A stretch of 25,632 bases of DNA from positions 1 through 25,632 of IMG/VR virus record IMGVR_UViG_3300025671_000459; one strand, given 5' to 3'. The stretch is from a virus. The notes beneath the pieces are model-generated. The model did no database searches and was not told where the DNA came from. It saw nothing but the letters and a program-made list of their open reading frames with translations. Positions 8,189 to 22,756 of the stretch are shown here, one piece after another (position 1 is the stretch's first letter; each line of letters begins with the position of its first letter). A program made the position numbers and the translations under genes.

Positions 8189-8641
8189 CTATTTTAACCT
8201 CCTACTATATTTTTTTTCAGTTAATGTATACCCATTACGATCGTAATATTTGGATAAGTCGTATTTTTTATCTACACTAAATGCAATCTCATTTGTATCA
8301 AACATAAATGCCATATATTCCAATTTATAAATGAGACTTAATAAAATCCTTCCTTGTTTTACCTTGTTCAAATCTGGGTCTGCCTGCATTGCAAATTGGT
8401 ATATGAGATTTGTTGTTGGGCTATACATTTCAGGAATAAGCATCGCAAATAATCCCCCAACAATCACATTATTATCTACACATTTCAAAATAATATAATC
8501 GTCACTTTCAATTTGTCCCTTTAATATCTTTTTGAAATAATCAGAATCGTATTCCCCTTGGAACTCCATCTTCTTGTAAGACTTACTCGCAATGACTTCT
8601 AACGCATCTATATCTGCAATTTCTGCTTTTCTAACTTTCAT
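8189..8641 (-). CDS. GNAT-family N-acetyltransferase
   Basis: The frame extends to 8677, but the family begins at MKVRKAEIADIDAL, so I place the start at the ATG at 8641 (150 residues), which overlaps the preceding gene's stop by 11 bases. The GNAT layout is visible: beta1 VRKAEIADIDALEVI, central strands YIILKCVDNNVIVGGLFA, the acetyl-CoA loop region LNKVKQGRILLSLIYKLEY (the Q-G-R in place of the usual Q-x-x-G-x-G/A), and the C-terminal YYDRNGYTLTEKKY, equal to the common F/Y-Y-x-x-x-G-F/Y. The family moves an acetyl group to an amine; the substrate is unknown. A GNAT lies among tail genes in many podovirus-like phages and may modify a virion or host protein. Confidence 0.75.
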   Translation of the reverse strand: MKVRKAEIADIDALEVIASKSYKKMEFQGEYDSDYFKKILKGQIESDDYIILKCVDNNVIVGGLFAMLIPEMYSPTTNLIYQFAMQADPDLNKVKQGRILLSLIYKLEYMAFMFDTNEIAFSVDKKYDLSKYYDRNGYTLTEKKYSRRLK

Positions 8642-8834
8642 ACGTTGCTTTTTGGTCCATACTTTCAACAACATCAATTAACTGGTTCACCTGGTTTCGC
8701 ACTGACGCATCACTCAAAATGACATAATCCTTTAAGCGATTAATCAATGTAATTGCTGATGCAACATCTGTACAATCAGCGTAATCACTTCTATTGATAC
8801 CGTCTAATCTTGTGGGAATAATGTGTTTCTTCAA
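8631..8834 (-). CDS. Small helical protein, TTG start
   Basis: 67 residues, not recognised. The start is TTG at 8834 with GAGG seven bases upstream; it overlaps the stop of the gp10-like gene by four bases (TTGA), so translation is probably coupled. The sequence is a helical segment (DVASAITLINRLKDYVILSD and then VRNQVNQLIDVVESM) without membrane spans. Its end overlaps the GNAT start by 11 bases. Position among tail genes suggests a small tail-assembly or chaperone protein, with no direct evidence. Confidence 0.6.
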   Translation of the reverse strand: MKKHIIPTRLDGINRSDYADCTDVASAITLINRLKDYVILSDASVRNQVNQLIDVVESMDQKATYES

Positions 8835-15432: not shown

Positions 15433-16422
15433 TTATGATACCAGTGACTCGGACTCTATTATTGCGTCAACTGTTTTAACAGGGATGCCTCTAAAAAAAG
15501 GAACCGGCATCCCATCAATGGTTTGATAGGTTAATCCGCCCCCTGATATAACATCAGCTCTAGCTTGTATATCAAGTTGTTCTGCAACAGCTCTATTAAC
15601 ATAAAAACAAGCGTTTTTTGTAGTTTCAATTCGGTGAGTCGCTTTAATCATTAATTCTGGAAGATCGGCACCTGAGCCAGCTCGAAGTGCGCTAACATCA
15701 AGATTACATATACGAACTGCATATCTCCAATCTTTAAGCACAAATGCCATTTCAAATTGTAAATGCTCAGTATATACTTCCAATAAAGTTCCATCAGGTT
15801 GATTACTAATTCTTTTTTTATAATCAGTATGTTTAATACCTGCGGTTGATCCAGCTGGGAACGCCCCATAAACACCTTGGGTACCATGTGAAACTAAATA
15901 GATTGAGGTGTTATCAGAACCTGTTGCTTCACCGTTAAGTACGTTTCTAGAATTTTCCCCTGATAAACTGTTGTAGTATGTAGCTAACCCAGAAAACTTT
16001 TTCTCATCTGTACTCGCATTACCATAAAAAAGAGTATCTTCAACTTTTTGGTTAATGGACTCAATTAATGGGGTAGACTCAGATAGTCTATTAGCCGCAA
16101 GGTTTCCACCTTTAGTTAAAACACTTGCTGGGTTTTCTCCCCAAATTTCAACCATTTTACATGGGAAAGTGTTTTGTGCGGTCGAAGAACTAACGGGCGT
16201 ACCACCTTGACCATGCATAACAAAACTTGCTTCTGGTAAACTAGTACGAACTGTAACTAATTCGCTAGTTGCTTGGTTAGCTTCCTTAAAAGATAAATCA
16301 CCAAGTAATGCTTTTTTGTCGGTAAGTAATTCAGCAATATGTTGAATCCCACCTTTTGAATCTGTTCGCTTTGCGAAATCAAGAAGTGTCATCCGACTTC
16401 CTGAAGCTGCTAATCCTGCCAT
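15433..16422 (-). CDS. Major capsid protein (HK97 fold, BPP-1-like)
   Basis: 329 residues, similar in length to the BPP-1 capsid protein and shorter than P22 gp5 (430). It starts LAASGSRMTLLDFAKRTDSK and contains ATSELVTVRTSLPEASFVMH, KMVEIWGENPAS, ESINQKVEDTLFYGNASTD and the C-terminal ACFYVNRAVAEQLDIQARAD, then a short FFRGIPVKTVDAI. The last stretch, a target-sequence strand followed by G-I-P-V-x-x-x-D, is typical of HK97-fold capsids (P domain). It assembles around the scaffold coded just upstream. Strong AGGAGG before the ATG at 16422. No separate protease gene is seen and no delta domain is obvious, so a protease-independent assembly with scaffold is likely. Confidence 0.85.
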   Translation of the reverse strand: MAGLAASGSRMTLLDFAKRTDSKGGIQHIAELLTDKKALLGDLSFKEANQATSELVTVRTSLPEASFVMHGQGGTPVSSSTAQNTFPCKMVEIWGENPASVLTKGGNLAANRLSESTPLIESINQKVEDTLFYGNASTDEKKFSGLATYYNSLSGENSRNVLNGEATGSDNTSIYLVSHGTQGVYGAFPAGSTAGIKHTDYKKRISNQPDGTLLEVYTEHLQFEMAFVLKDWRYAVRICNLDVSALRAGSGADLPELMIKATHRIETTKNACFYVNRAVAEQLDIQARADVISGGGLTYQTIDGMPVPFFRGIPVKTVDAIIESESLVS

Positions 16423-17561: not shown

Positions 17562-19787
17562 TTAACTTTGATTTAATCCCTTATCAATTACTTTCATTCT
17601 TGTTTCGTGCTCAAACTGCTGTTGCTGTCTAATGTTTTGCCCTTGTTGTGCAATATTCGTCTTTTCAATCTCAATATTATTTTTCTGTTGTTCTAATTGT
17701 GCTTGCATTTGCTGACCTTGTTGGGCGGCATTTAACAATCGTTTTTTCTGTGCTTCATCAATATCTGGCCTTAATTGCAATAAGAAATCTGCGGTTATTC
17801 CTGGGACACCTTGTTGCGCTAATTGTGCGAAAGTAGCAAAATTTTCATCAGACTTAGTGGTATAGTACGGCCCGTAATCAATAACAATATCATATTTAAG
17901 GGAATCAGGGTTTTCCCATATCTTTTTGATTGCCTCGGCGTTATATTGCGTAAATGAAATGCCGTTAATAGTAAACTCGTCATTATTTTTCATTCGCATT
18001 TCATTTGAATGGTTTTCTAGTATCCTGTAAATCCGTTCAGGGGTATACAATATTCGATACATTTCAATCAATCTAAATCCTAGTTGCCGCAACATAATAT
18101 TATAGTTATCAAATAAATATTGAATATTAGCTAACGCCGCATTACGTCTTTCGCGGAATAAAGGTGTGGACTGAACCCCTCTAACACCAGCGACCCCCTC
18201 AGTATTAAAACCTGAAATTAAATCAATGTGTTTTTCGCTTAATTGAGCAATTTGTAATAATTCTGTTGGAAATCGAGGTGGTGTTTTTTCTCTCGGGGGC
18301 TTATCAGCGTTTGCAACTTTAAGTAATGCGCCTGGAGTTGATCGCCCTGTTTCATAGTTCTGCTTATCATTTTCATCATTAAAAGTTTCGTCATCATATA
18401 TTTCAGCATTTGTTCCAAGCCTCATTAATAGCTCAATATAACTTGTGGTACGCTTATTTAATTCGTTTTGTGGGTCAATTAAATCATAAACCTCACCTTT
18501 GATACGGCCACGACGTATAGTAGCATAACAAGGGATAGTCATGTATCCATCAAATTCACTTAATCTGTCATACAACATAATGTCTGCGGCAAATGTGCCA
18601 ACCCAATATTCTGTAACCCGTCTTGTGTCTTTGGTAAACCCAGGGATACTCAGGATGCGTTTGCGAGTTTTTGCATCTAATAACCACGATTCTATTGCTC
18701 CATCTTCCCCATCTAAATAATATTCATCTACTGGATTAAAGATAACAAGGCGTTCTTTATACTCTCGACGTGTCACATTCATTAATCTGTACTTTTCCTC
18801 ATTGACAACATTATTATCGAATAATAACATTGGCTCATTTTGAGCAGTGTAATATAGGGCCGTATCATGGGGAATATTACTTCCGCTCATTTGCTCAATA
18901 TCTTTTTTCTTACTTTCTGGGGCTATTCTTAACAAATAATCCTTTGTTACCCATCTCCACTTAACGACACCCTCACAATCACTGAGGTCTTTTTTACGGT
19001 GAGGCATATAATTCACCTGCTCCCAGTCTTGGTGGTCAATCATAGGGTCTCCATACTCAACCCCATGCTTAGTATCAATCCCTATATTGATATTGCCTCT
19101 ACCGGTAATAATCATATCCGTGACAACTTCACTTTGAACGCTCTTATAATCGCAATCAGCCAATGTATGTGTAATTAACGCATTATATACGTCACTTAAC
19201 GTTGCATCACTACCTTCAGTTGGCTTAACTTTTGGCACCATTGGATCGGACCGAAAAAATCCAACTAACGTATTGACTTTATTTTTTAACACGTTAAATG
19301 ATAAATAAGGGCGCTTCATTTTCTGCAATACCTGTTTAATTGATTCATCCCACTGGTATTCCCCACCAAAAACCATTTCCTCTGCTTTTATAGCGTCACC
19401 ATGATACTGGCTACAATCATTATCATAGGCTTGAGCCGCAATTTGAAGATACTTCTTTTTTATTTCTTCATAATCTTCGGGGTTTTTTTCCCGTTTATTG
19501 GACGGAATACTTAAATATTGGTCCAATATCTCATGAGTGTGCCCATTAACTTCTTGCACAAAATATCTCTCTGGGATAACCATTGGTTCTCCGGTGTCTG
19601 GGTTTGGGATTTCTTGCCCCATTGACCCTGGGTTATACCAAATTTCGTGTTGATGCCCGTCATCTTCATTAGCACTGGTAAACCCAATAATCCCATCTCC
19701 ATTTTCCGTAACACTTTCCGGTTCAACGGCAGACCTAATATATATAATATGATCGTGGCCTAGAACCTCCGAACTAAGTTTTAACAT
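17562..19787 (-). CDS. Portal protein, P22 gp1-like, with His-rich N-terminal extension
   Basis: 741 residues (P22 gp1: 725). The portal core starts near residue 147 (DESIKQVLQKMKRPYLSFNV, then NKVNTLVGFFRS), with the family's R-P-x-L-x-F-N and L-V-G-x-x-R. It goes on to the stem and crown, including QSTPLFRERRNAALANIQYL near 545, and ends with a Gln-rich coiled coil (about 690-730), like the barrel of P22. The dodecameric ring carries DNA in and out and binds the terminase and connector. Unusual is the N-terminal part, with three GHxHxI motifs at residues 10-15 (GHDHII), 44-49 (GHQHEI) and 82-87 (GHTHEI), spaced 34 and 38. This part is extra to the P22 core. AGGAGG precedes the ATG at 19787. 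Confidence 0.85.
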   Translation of the reverse strand: MLKLSSEVLGHDHIIYIRSAVEPESVTENGDGIIGFTSANEDDGHQHEIWYNPGSMGQEIPNPDTGEPMVIPERYFVQEVNGHTHEILDQYLSIPSNKREKNPEDYEEIKKKYLQIAAQAYDNDCSQYHGDAIKAEEMVFGGEYQWDESIKQVLQKMKRPYLSFNVLKNKVNTLVGFFRSDPMVPKVKPTEGSDATLSDVYNALITHTLADCDYKSVQSEVVTDMIITGRGNINIGIDTKHGVEYGDPMIDHQDWEQVNYMPHRKKDLSDCEGVVKWRWVTKDYLLRIAPESKKKDIEQMSGSNIPHDTALYYTAQNEPMLLFDNNVVNEEKYRLMNVTRREYKERLVIFNPVDEYYLDGEDGAIESWLLDAKTRKRILSIPGFTKDTRRVTEYWVGTFAADIMLYDRLSEFDGYMTIPCYATIRRGRIKGEVYDLIDPQNELNKRTTSYIELLMRLGTNAEIYDDETFNDENDKQNYETGRSTPGALLKVANADKPPREKTPPRFPTELLQIAQLSEKHIDLISGFNTEGVAGVRGVQSTPLFRERRNAALANIQYLFDNYNIMLRQLGFRLIEMYRILYTPERIYRILENHSNEMRMKNNDEFTINGISFTQYNAEAIKKIWENPDSLKYDIVIDYGPYYTTKSDENFATFAQLAQQGVPGITADFLLQLRPDIDEAQKKRLLNAAQQGQQMQAQLEQQKNNIEIEKTNIAQQGQNIRQQQQFEHETRMKVIDKGLNQS

Positions 19788-19796
19788 AATTTCCTC

Positions 19797-21431
19797 CTAT
19801 AACGCCATCCAAGCGTTGTCTAACTGCTGAATAATATTCCCTGAAACAAATGATCTATCCTTTTTTCTTTCTTTTATTCTCATTGTCACTTCATATCTGT
19901 TGTAAAAGCACATCATTAGAGCATCAAGTTTGTTGGGACTTTCATAGCCCAACTTGCCACGCATTTCCTTCTTGAACTTGTCATTCTTTTTACTGACCAA
20001 CTTAAATTTACCACTTCGATGCTCTGGGTCCTCCATCAATAAACTAATTTCATTGATTAATTCCTCATCATCTGGAATATATATATTGCCAGTCTCAAAT
20101 GCATCTCGCAATCTAAAACCTAACTCATCCCTTAAATTGAAATAGCGATCACTTCTTGAGAAAGAATTACCTTTTATTCCCTTTAATTTTGTATACCCCA
20201 TGGCAACCAATTTATCGTAAACGCCTTGCCCAATCCCCACCGCATCAATGTAATATTCATCTGGCTCGTAATCACTCAGTAATTCTTCATACCAAGACGC
20301 TACCACTTCTGTATTTGGGCTTGTGTTTTTCTCAAATCTAATCAGTTTACGTCCTTTCATAATGACGCATTGGCTAGGATCGCCACCACCACCAACATCA
20401 AGCGCGGTAATAAGTGGGGCATCTTTTTCGGGGTCATACATATCATAGGCTTCAACCGATTGCCGAATCCACTCATAACTTATAAATGCCCCGTCATCGG
20501 TTAATGGCGGCAACCCTAACACGTTTACTCGATACATATTGCTATCTACACCAAACTTGTTCCTCATATATTCAATATGATCTTTGCTTACCAAAGTGCT
20601 ATTTTCGCAATTAATTTGGTGCGTAATCCAATATTTTGACATTTTGGCACTATGGGCATCAATTGCCCAACCTGTATTTTTATTCGGGTTAAAAATATTG
20701 AATATTACGTTGTTAGCCTGCGTACACGTATCATCTATCGCATCAAATACGTAATTTGGGATACCCGGGGCCTCATCCGTAATAAATAGCATATTATCAG
20801 CGTGTTTACCCTGTAACCCAACGGTATTTTCTTTGTTATTAGCACTTTGGCCAAATGTAATAATCTTGATCGACCAACCTTTAGCCGCATTTAATTTCTT
20901 ATCACCTTGCCCTGTATATAAAACGGTTTCCCCTTTAACATCAACACATTCACGCAAGTAATTCCCCTCTACCCCATAAACCTCTATGGATCGGTTATAC
21001 CATTTGCTTATTTCTGGAAATAACCCTGCCATAATTTGATCGTATTTAGGGCCAATTAAAAACACCTTGCTATTATCGTAACACACCAAAAACCATAACG
21101 AGACTAAGCTCGCAATGGCTGTCTTCCCACAACCTTTGCCAGCCATGGTAGACACACCTTTTTTCTTTGATAATTTCTCTTCAACCTCATGCAACTTTAC
21201 CCCATTGCCCTTTTTCCACTGCACAAAACATAAATCCGCTAACGACTGAATAATATCTACCTGTAACGGGTCTAGCATGTAATGTAACCCTAGTGGGCCT
21301 GGGCTAGTACCGTATAATTCGCCTTTTTTATCAAGTTCTTCTTGTGTTAAATGGAACCCAATGACATCTTGCACAAAGGTTATTGGCTTAGTACGCCATT
21401 TATGGATTAACTCCTCGCTAGCCGTAATCAT
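19797..21431 (-). CDS. Terminase large subunit (packaging ATPase and nuclease)
   Basis: 544 residues with both domains. The ATPase has Walker A AGKGCGKT at 97-104, Walker B MLFITDE at 214-220 (Asp219, Glu220 as the catalytic acid), and a coupling motif near NIFNPN (245-250). The RNase H-like nuclease has Asp345 in ITALDVGGGGD, Asp396 in YYIDAVGIGQG and Asp503 in SPNKLDALMM, the three acidic metal ligands. It translocates DNA into the procapsid and cuts concatemers. The ATG at 21431 overlaps the stop of the 64-residue gene (ATGA). The portal gene starts 9 bases after the stop. All key residues are intact. Confidence 0.93.
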   Translation of the reverse strand: MITASEELIHKWRTKPITFVQDVIGFHLTQEELDKKGELYGTSPGPLGLHYMLDPLQVDIIQSLADLCFVQWKKGNGVKLHEVEEKLSKKKGVSTMAGKGCGKTAIASLVSLWFLVCYDNSKVFLIGPKYDQIMAGLFPEISKWYNRSIEVYGVEGNYLRECVDVKGETVLYTGQGDKKLNAAKGWSIKIITFGQSANNKENTVGLQGKHADNMLFITDEAPGIPNYVFDAIDDTCTQANNVIFNIFNPNKNTGWAIDAHSAKMSKYWITHQINCENSTLVSKDHIEYMRNKFGVDSNMYRVNVLGLPPLTDDGAFISYEWIRQSVEAYDMYDPEKDAPLITALDVGGGGDPSQCVIMKGRKLIRFEKNTSPNTEVVASWYEELLSDYEPDEYYIDAVGIGQGVYDKLVAMGYTKLKGIKGNSFSRSDRYFNLRDELGFRLRDAFETGNIYIPDDEELINEISLLMEDPEHRSGKFKLVSKKNDKFKKEMRGKLGYESPNKLDALMMCFYNRYEVTMRIKERKKDRSFVSGNIIQQLDNAWMAL

Positions 21432-21642: not shown

Positions 21643-22374
21643 TTATTGTGGATTAATTCGCTTCATTAACTCGTTTTCTTGATTTTCTATTTCTTCTTGT
21701 TTAACTTTTATTAAAGCCGCAATATCACGTCGCTTTAAGAAATTATGCAAAGAAATATATGAACATCCCAATGGCTCCCCATCTTTCCCCTTTATATCAT
21801 TTAATTTCCTTGCAATTCTTGCCTTACTCCAATTGCGGTCGCAATACCACGTTAAAATAACATTAGTGTATTTGTCAAGTTTACTACCACGCTTTGACCC
21901 TTTTTTGGGTCCGGGCATCCGCCCAGCCGCCATAGCCGAATATAACCCATCTTTTGTTCGCTCACTTAACTGCTCACGCTCAAACTGGGCAAAAGACGCT
22001 AAAATATTAACAAACATCTTAACCGCCGGGGAAGGCTTCTTACTGTCTAATACCAATCCTTCCTTAATTAAGTGAACTACAACCCCCTTCGTATATAAAT
22101 CCTCAATTATTTCATTGGCCTGTCTAAGTGTTCTGGCTAACCGAGATATCGAATAGAATAATAAATGATCACCATCCTCTAATTCATAAACCCGGTTAAT
22201 CATTCGATTCTCAACCCCCTTAGTTGAACTACAAATAACATGAATCATATCCCCAACTTCCTCATCAATCTTAAATCCATGCTTAGTGCAATACTCATAT
22301 ATAGCCATTTTCTGCATAGATACTTCTTGTTTACGTGTGGAAACCCTTAAATAACCTACTGCTCGTGGTGACAT
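21643..22374 (-). CDS. Small serine recombinase (resolvase/invertase family)
   Basis: The frame extends to 22419, but AAGGAGG lies eight bases before the ATG at 22374, and MSPRAVGYLRVSTRKQ is the usual family start, so I place the gene there (243 residues). Catalytic residues match Tn3/gamma-delta: Arg10 and Ser12 in YLRVST, and Arg78 and Arg81 in ISRLAR. Helix E is present as ASFAQFEREQLSERTKDGL (127-144), followed by an Arg/Lys/Gly arm and a helix-turn-helix DNA-binding domain (RNWSKARIARKLN, 180-192). A basic, Glu-rich tail follows. The enzyme makes 2-bp staggered cuts with a 5'-phosphoserine link. It could resolve genome multimers, invert or insert DNA. No site pair for it was recognised in the window. 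Confidence 0.88.
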   Translation of the reverse strand: MSPRAVGYLRVSTRKQEVSMQKMAIYEYCTKHGFKIDEEVGDMIHVICSSTKGVENRMINRVYELEDGDHLLFYSISRLARTLRQANEIIEDLYTKGVVVHLIKEGLVLDSKKPSPAVKMFVNILASFAQFEREQLSERTKDGLYSAMAAGRMPGPKKGSKRGSKLDKYTNVILTWYCDRNWSKARIARKLNDIKGKDGEPLGCSYISLHNFLKRRDIAALIKVKQEEIENQENELMKRINPQ

Positions 22375-22387
22375 ATTAATAACCTCC

Positions 22388-22756
22388 TTACCTAATAAAC
22401 CGCTTCTTCTTGTAGGCACGGTTTTTTCTTTGAATATTCTCTTTAGTATAAAAATCTTTGTTGACCTGGCTATCGTCTATCTGCAACCCAGATTCAGTGG
22501 TATATTTAAATGGAACCCCCGTCCTATTTATAATTACACCGTCAATATCCAGGCTATACGCTTTCCCATCGTCATAATACGCCCAAGCATTTTGATACAA
22601 CTTAAATTGCTTTTTCGCATTACCTTTTGCTTTAGTCCCATATATAACAATCCATACGCCATATGACGTAGGTTTAGCTATCCAACGACTGATAATATCG
22701 CTAAATAACAACTTAAATCGGTCTACTATACTCTGTATTATCATTTTAATATCCAT
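22388..22756 (-). CDS. Hypothetical protein
   Basis: 122 residues if the ATG at 22756 is used; the open frame extends to 22795, and another ATG is at 22744. None has a good ribosome binding site (AGGG is 12 bases before 22756), so it is probably coupled to the upstream gene, which it overlaps by 11 bases. The protein has an amphipathic N-terminus (MIIQSIVDRFKLLFSDIISR), a likely beta-rich centre (TSYGVWIVIYGTKAKGNAKK, AYYDDGKAYSLDIDGVIINR), and ends in a very basic tail (RKNRAYKKKRFIR). I do not recognise a family. The gene stops 13 bases before the recombinase start. Confidence 0.55.
   Translation of the reverse strand: MDIKMIIQSIVDRFKLLFSDIISRWIAKPTSYGVWIVIYGTKAKGNAKKQFKLYQNAWAYYDDGKAYSLDIDGVIINRTGVPFKYTTESGLQIDDSQVNKDFYTKENIQRKNRAYKKKRFIR

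Follow-up and report, generated by a model that had tools for sequence, protein, structure and literature searches.

The portal protein analysed here carries, ahead of a P22-type core, an N-terminal domain with three HxH pairs, and in the sequence alignments the six histidines of these pairs are constrained more tightly than any other position of the domain, even where identity falls to about 20-30%. Judged from portal sequences, the domain characterises a single large clade among the P22-type portals of uncultured phages, and it is an undescribed variant feature of that clade. One structural transition-metal ion is probably held by the three HxH pairs of a single chain, within a predicted beta domain that would have a head-assembly role on the portal wing. 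The term window is used below for the whole stretch of DNA that was analysed, itself a virus record, which is 25,632 nt long.

The portal gene and its N-terminal domain

The assignment as a portal comes from the core of the protein and from its neighbourhood. The Pfam P22_portal model (PF16510) matches with an E-value of 1.3e-69 and 235.7 bits against a gathering cut-off of 26.1, and the PHROG portal family (phrog_156) matches residues 105-724 with an E-value of 2.9e-57. The gene order is terminase, portal, scaffold-like ORF and major capsid protein (MCP), with a TerL-like gene (terminase large subunit) at 19797-21431 and an MCP gene (phrog_212) at 15433-16422. The 305-aa ORF between portal and MCP is called a scaffold by position only. 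Apart from its N-terminal domain, this is an ordinary P22-type portal. The Pfam core begins at residue 126 and the PHROG match at residue 105, which leaves about 105-125 residues for the extra part. The original prediction of a portal extension was right that the extra N-terminal part is real, but its length of about 145 residues was too great.

Some other features were seen in the same window. The portal core contains a hypervariable patch (window 18768-18887, residues 301-340) with about 57% nucleotide identity to relatives, where 21-22 of 40 codons differ nonsynonymously, whereas the rest of the core is about 93% identical. A serine-recombinase-like gene (DNA invertase; window 21643-22419, minus strand; phrog_125, E 7e-35) lies just upstream of the terminase, and an acetyltransferase-like ORF (window 8189-8677, minus strand; phrog_1249, E 1e-9) lies within the structural gene block.

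Reading the sequence confirmed the three GHxHxI motifs that had been predicted in the N-terminus (Table 1). They are the only GHxH occurrences in all six frames of the window and the only HxH occurrences in the whole portal, and together they use all six histidines of residues 1-100. When residues 1-100 were shuffled 100,000 times, three HxH arose in 113 shuffles (0.1%) and three GHxHxI in none. Comparison of codons 1-100 with two close relatives found 8 synonymous and 0-1 nonsynonymous differences, which shows that this region is translated and strongly constrained and rules out a chance translation. The linker diverges faster than the domain, as 16 nonsynonymous differences fall in codons 101-160. 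Together with the codon constraint, an AGGAGG ribosome-binding site 5 nt before the ATG makes the annotated start sound, and it rules out a start downstream of residue 87, which had been named beforehand as a finding that would refute the prediction.

No Pfam, PHROG or NCBIfam model covers residues 1-100, and PDB sequence searches with the single sequence and with a profile returned nothing that explains them. Weak PDB matches of the domain to rubrerythrin (E 0.16-0.28) did not recur with the profile and were dropped. A metal-free AlphaFold2 model of the domain is mainly beta and of moderate confidence (mean pLDDT 78.1, pTM 0.63), and its predicted strands (residues 2-6, 11-17, 32-37, 48-52, 74-77 and 86-88) include some at or next to each motif. 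A shorter relative also gave a model of moderate confidence (pLDDT 74.9, pTM 0.57). Foldseek searches of both models against the PDB and viral models gave no match below E 0.5, and the confidence of the models is too low for a claim of a new fold.

Table 1. Coordinates of the portal gene, its parts and the related fusion genes (window positions unless a locus is named).
Feature	Position	Strand	Basis
Portal gene, 741 aa, P22-type with N-terminal triple-HxH domain	17562..19787	-	ORF; Pfam PF16510; phrog_156
Triple-HxH domain, residues about 1-92	19512..19787	-	alignments A3, A4, A6
Motif 1 GHDHII, residues 10-15 (His11, His13)	19743..19760	-	sequence
Motif 2 GHQHEI, residues 44-49 (His45, His47)	19641..19658	-	sequence
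Motif 3 GHTHEI, residues 82-87 (His83, His85)	19527..19544	-	sequence
Charged linker from domain to portal core, residues about 93-125	19413..19511	-	codon comparison
P22_portal core, residues 126-724	17616..19412	-	Pfam
Ribosome-binding site AGGAGG, 5 nt before ATG	19793..19798	-	sequence
S78 - triple-HxH - Phage_capsid single-ORF fusions	L036:3119-5848; L105:2019-5045; L128:1596-4151		many similar loci from two-HxH pattern

Conservation and distribution of the domain

Single-sequence scans reached near-identical relatives only, and the family was opened by a two-HxH DNA pattern and a portal profile. The profile was scanned on viral contigs by way of patterns from the core only, which gave 80 loci, and 74 new ones were read. 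Five of these were cut at the 5' end, one was an internal fragment, 16 had a short N-terminus without HxH, one was locus L197 and 51 had the full extension. Exactly three HxH were present in 49/51 of these core-selected portals with a complete extension, a count of loci that includes near-copies. The exceptions, L173 and L176, are sister portals that have lost motif 1, and L176 is also missing part of motif 2. This loss suggests that the HxH site is not essential in all portals. Locus L197 seemed at first to be without the domain, but it has one; at L197:4636-6392 the triple-HxH domain and the portal core lie in different overlapping frames, through a frameshift or a sequencing error. The 3.4-kb contig L214, which was binned into an Anaerohalosphaeraceae MAG, also has the triple-HxH portal domain.

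Homologues with the extension thus keep its histidine pairs almost without exception; loss of the histidines from a retained segment had been named as a finding that would refute the prediction, and the reverse was found. In an alignment of 27 non-redundant divergent portal domains (A4; mean column identity 30%), no column apart from the six histidines is invariant, and the next best reaches 81%. In an alignment of 34 rows from portals and from the protease-capsid fusions described below (A6), the six are again the only invariant columns and the next reaches 76%. The rows of both alignments were picked partly by the presence of HxH, which inflates the word invariant, and 49/51 is the fair figure. 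No Asp, Glu, Cys or Ser is conserved comparably to the six histidines in A4 or A6.

The spacing of the motifs is far less constant. The gap between motifs 1 and 2 in the 49 relatives is 19-32 residues (median 21), and that between motifs 2 and 3 is 16-112 residues (median 34), often with a Pro/Gly-rich stretch. The regular spacing of 34 and 38 residues in the original prediction is present in this portal, but it is peculiar to this lineage rather than a feature of the family. The description of a triplicated regular repeat is not supported either, because the segment resembles a single domain containing three HxH strands rather than three equal units.

A FastTree phylogeny was built from 71 portals with the triple-HxH domain cut off and was rooted at the midpoint; some long branches lie outside the clade. 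One branch (support 100) separates the 42 portals with the domain from the 29 without it, so the core of the present portal groups with other HxH portals even when the domain is excluded. The domain is absent in seven phage-database portals that were checked (two Manatee Spring phages, Acidovorax AP1, Burkholderia DC1, Microcystis Mwe-JY25, Ochrobactrum POI1126 and Erwinia Stean). The claim that known P22-type portals lack the extension holds for those seven, although an entire uncultured clade carries it.

The same module was found outside portals. The two-HxH DNA pattern found more than 120 stretches in viral contigs, mostly in 860-1030-aa proteins. Three representatives (L036, L105 and L128) have an S78 prohead protease domain at the N-terminus, a Phage_capsid domain at the C-terminus and the triple HxH between them, in a module that reads GHYHTVE...GNGVTTYASH..NHAHKI...EAEGHTHDI. 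An hhalign comparison of the portal domain with the fusion module gave a probability of 95.5 and an E-value of 1.5e-8, and an HMM built from A4 finds the domain in portals and in protease-capsid fusions alike. The best phage-database matches of the fusions are to protease and capsid as separate genes. Some matches of the two-HxH pattern were left out because they were spurious frames or GHxH-rich proteins with no relation to the module (tail-fibre-like DPGHTH arrays). A protease-related protein (phrog_15223) at L131:3270-5402 on the minus strand has six GHxH motifs in an expanded HxH array.

A tblastn search of the phage database with the domain alone gave nothing convincing at first, and then a match in the cultured Roseobacter phage RDJL Phi1 (E 0.1) that was confirmed from the protein sequence. 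The protein, gp72 (L213:3797-4909), is a 371-aa hypothetical protein with triple HxH at residues 70, 94 and 114. Its gene lies two before that of the MCP, gp74, and close relatives are found in RDJL Phi2 and RDJL6. Erythrobacter phage R6L gp93 was rejected as a carrier of the module, as it has in common only the C-terminal part of gp72, without HxH. Both in the fusions and in gp72, the three motifs together span no more than about 45 residues. Portals, S78 protease-capsid fusions and a gene two before the MCP all point to head morphogenesis as the common setting of the module, and gp72 offers an accessible experimental system for it.

The proposed metal site and its alternatives

The original prediction had read the paired histidines as metal binding, and conservation supports this reading well, as the six are the sole invariant columns among 27 portal domains and among 34 domains in two contexts; we infer a metal site on that basis. 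R-pyocin fibres have an octahedral Fe(II) site of six histidines built by HxH pairs from three chains, and similar His6 sites occur in T4 gp37, P2 gpV and the phi92 spike (PMC6116203). Because the present domain has three HxH in one chain, exactly six histidines and little else conserved, a single-chain His6 site is the economical reading. The three pairs would converge on a single transition-metal ion, with Fe(II) and Zn(II) as the likeliest candidates. The site would be structural, saturated and made of histidines only, a single-chain counterpart of the three-chain His6 Fe(II) sites, and the metal would stabilise the small domain.

The lack of any Asp, Glu or Cys conserved to a similar degree suggests a saturated structural site rather than a hydrolase. 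Many metallohydrolases have HxH and some module-bearing proteins are proteases, which would fit a catalytic metal domain with hydrolase-like HxH sites. However, such a domain is very improbable: no conserved Asp, Glu, Cys or Ser lies beside the histidines, the protease of the fusions is a separate S78 domain, and no enzyme family in Pfam, PHROG or NCBIfam matches. The histidines might also bind metal in another arrangement than a single His6 site within the chain. Four of the six could hold Zn(II), for instance, or sites could be shared between neighbouring ring subunits or with scaffold or coat, where the metal would link subunits. Zn is present at an HxH site in the crystal structure of T4 gp12 (PMC6116203), portals are ring oligomers, and the gap between motifs 2 and 3 ranges so widely that motif 3 could reach a neighbour. 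Partial or shared sites are nonetheless rather unlikely, as six equally invariant histidines are simplest with one site that uses all of them, and the short span of the motifs in the fusions and in gp72 fits a compact single-chain unit.

A domain without metal seems more doubtful still. Its histidine pairs would serve as a pH switch or as a protein- or DNA-docking surface, with HxH kept for packing or charge. Histidine residues can act as pH sensors, the metal site is itself an interpretation, and the models of the domain match no solved fold. However, strict HxH three times amid variable positions is typical of metal ligands, and a docking surface would be expected to have other conserved residues, of which there are none in A4 and A6.

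The place of the single-chain site in the virion can be judged from P22, whose portal wing is made up of residues 6-319 and 417-524 and is bound by scaffold (PMC12005531). An N-terminal domain of the portal would thus be expected at the wing, near scaffold and coat. The outer face of the ring, which the original prediction had suggested, is a conjectural position for it. By homology with P22, it would hang where scaffold contacts the ring, and it would most likely act in head assembly (scaffold or coat docking, or portal incorporation) rather than in catalysis. This role is the most likely one on context, and it fits the place of the fusion module beside protease and capsid domains. If the ring is dodecameric, as the family suggests, three motifs per chain make 36 per ring.

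With one ion per subunit, each virion would gain about 12, which could suit an iron cargo, carried in the head-neck rather than in the tail, that exploits host uptake or binds environmental iron. Such a 'Ferrojan horse' has been proposed for HxH tail fibres (PMC11705849). There is only a slight chance that it applies here, since the portal occupies the head vertex and does not serve as a receptor ligand, and nothing ties the module to iron uptake. A further point against it is that the fusion module adjoins protease and scaffold regions, and HK97-type phages remove these regions on maturation.

In the literature that was searched, no earlier account of HxH in a portal or a prohead protease turned up. 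Phage tail tips have known metal sites, but to our knowledge none has been described on a portal or in a head-assembly module. It is a plausible but tentative further step that an unnamed head domain builds a full octahedral Fe(II)-type six-His site from the three HxH strands of one chain, and that it sits on the portal of one large clade and inside the protease-capsid polyproteins of another. If this is true, a metal ion would serve in the structure or assembly of the phage head and not only in tail tips. The domain has no Pfam or NCBIfam model and keeps little but six histidines across this clade of environmental phages, which makes it a compact case in which metal-dependent head assembly can be tested and, with the HMM from A4, a clean annotation target.

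Comparison with known systems

The present portal has in common with P22-type portals (PF16510, phrog_156; P22 gp1 and the Pam1 portal) the core match and the gene order, and it adds the N-terminal residues with three HxH that none of the seven phage-database portals has. With the His6 Fe(II) needles and fibres (T4 gp37, P2 gpV, phi92 spike, R1/R2 pyocin fibre) it is alike in having HxH pairs, six histidines in all and, as predicted, beta structure. However, those proteins contribute two histidines from each of the three chains of a trimer, whereas here one chain has all three pairs. As a portal with three motifs per chain, and not a trimeric fibre or spike, it is not a member of the tail needle/fibre class and would only work alike. 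Calprotectin offers another parallel, in that six histidines make one transition-metal site like that proposed here, but that site is made by two S100 chains of an unrelated protein. The S78-HxH-Phage_capsid fusions have the same three-HxH module, placed between protease and capsid domains and with tighter spacing (23 and 15). In RDJL Phi1 gp72 and its relatives in RDJL Phi2 and RDJL6, the triple HxH lies among the clustered head genes of a cultured phage, in a protein without a portal core.
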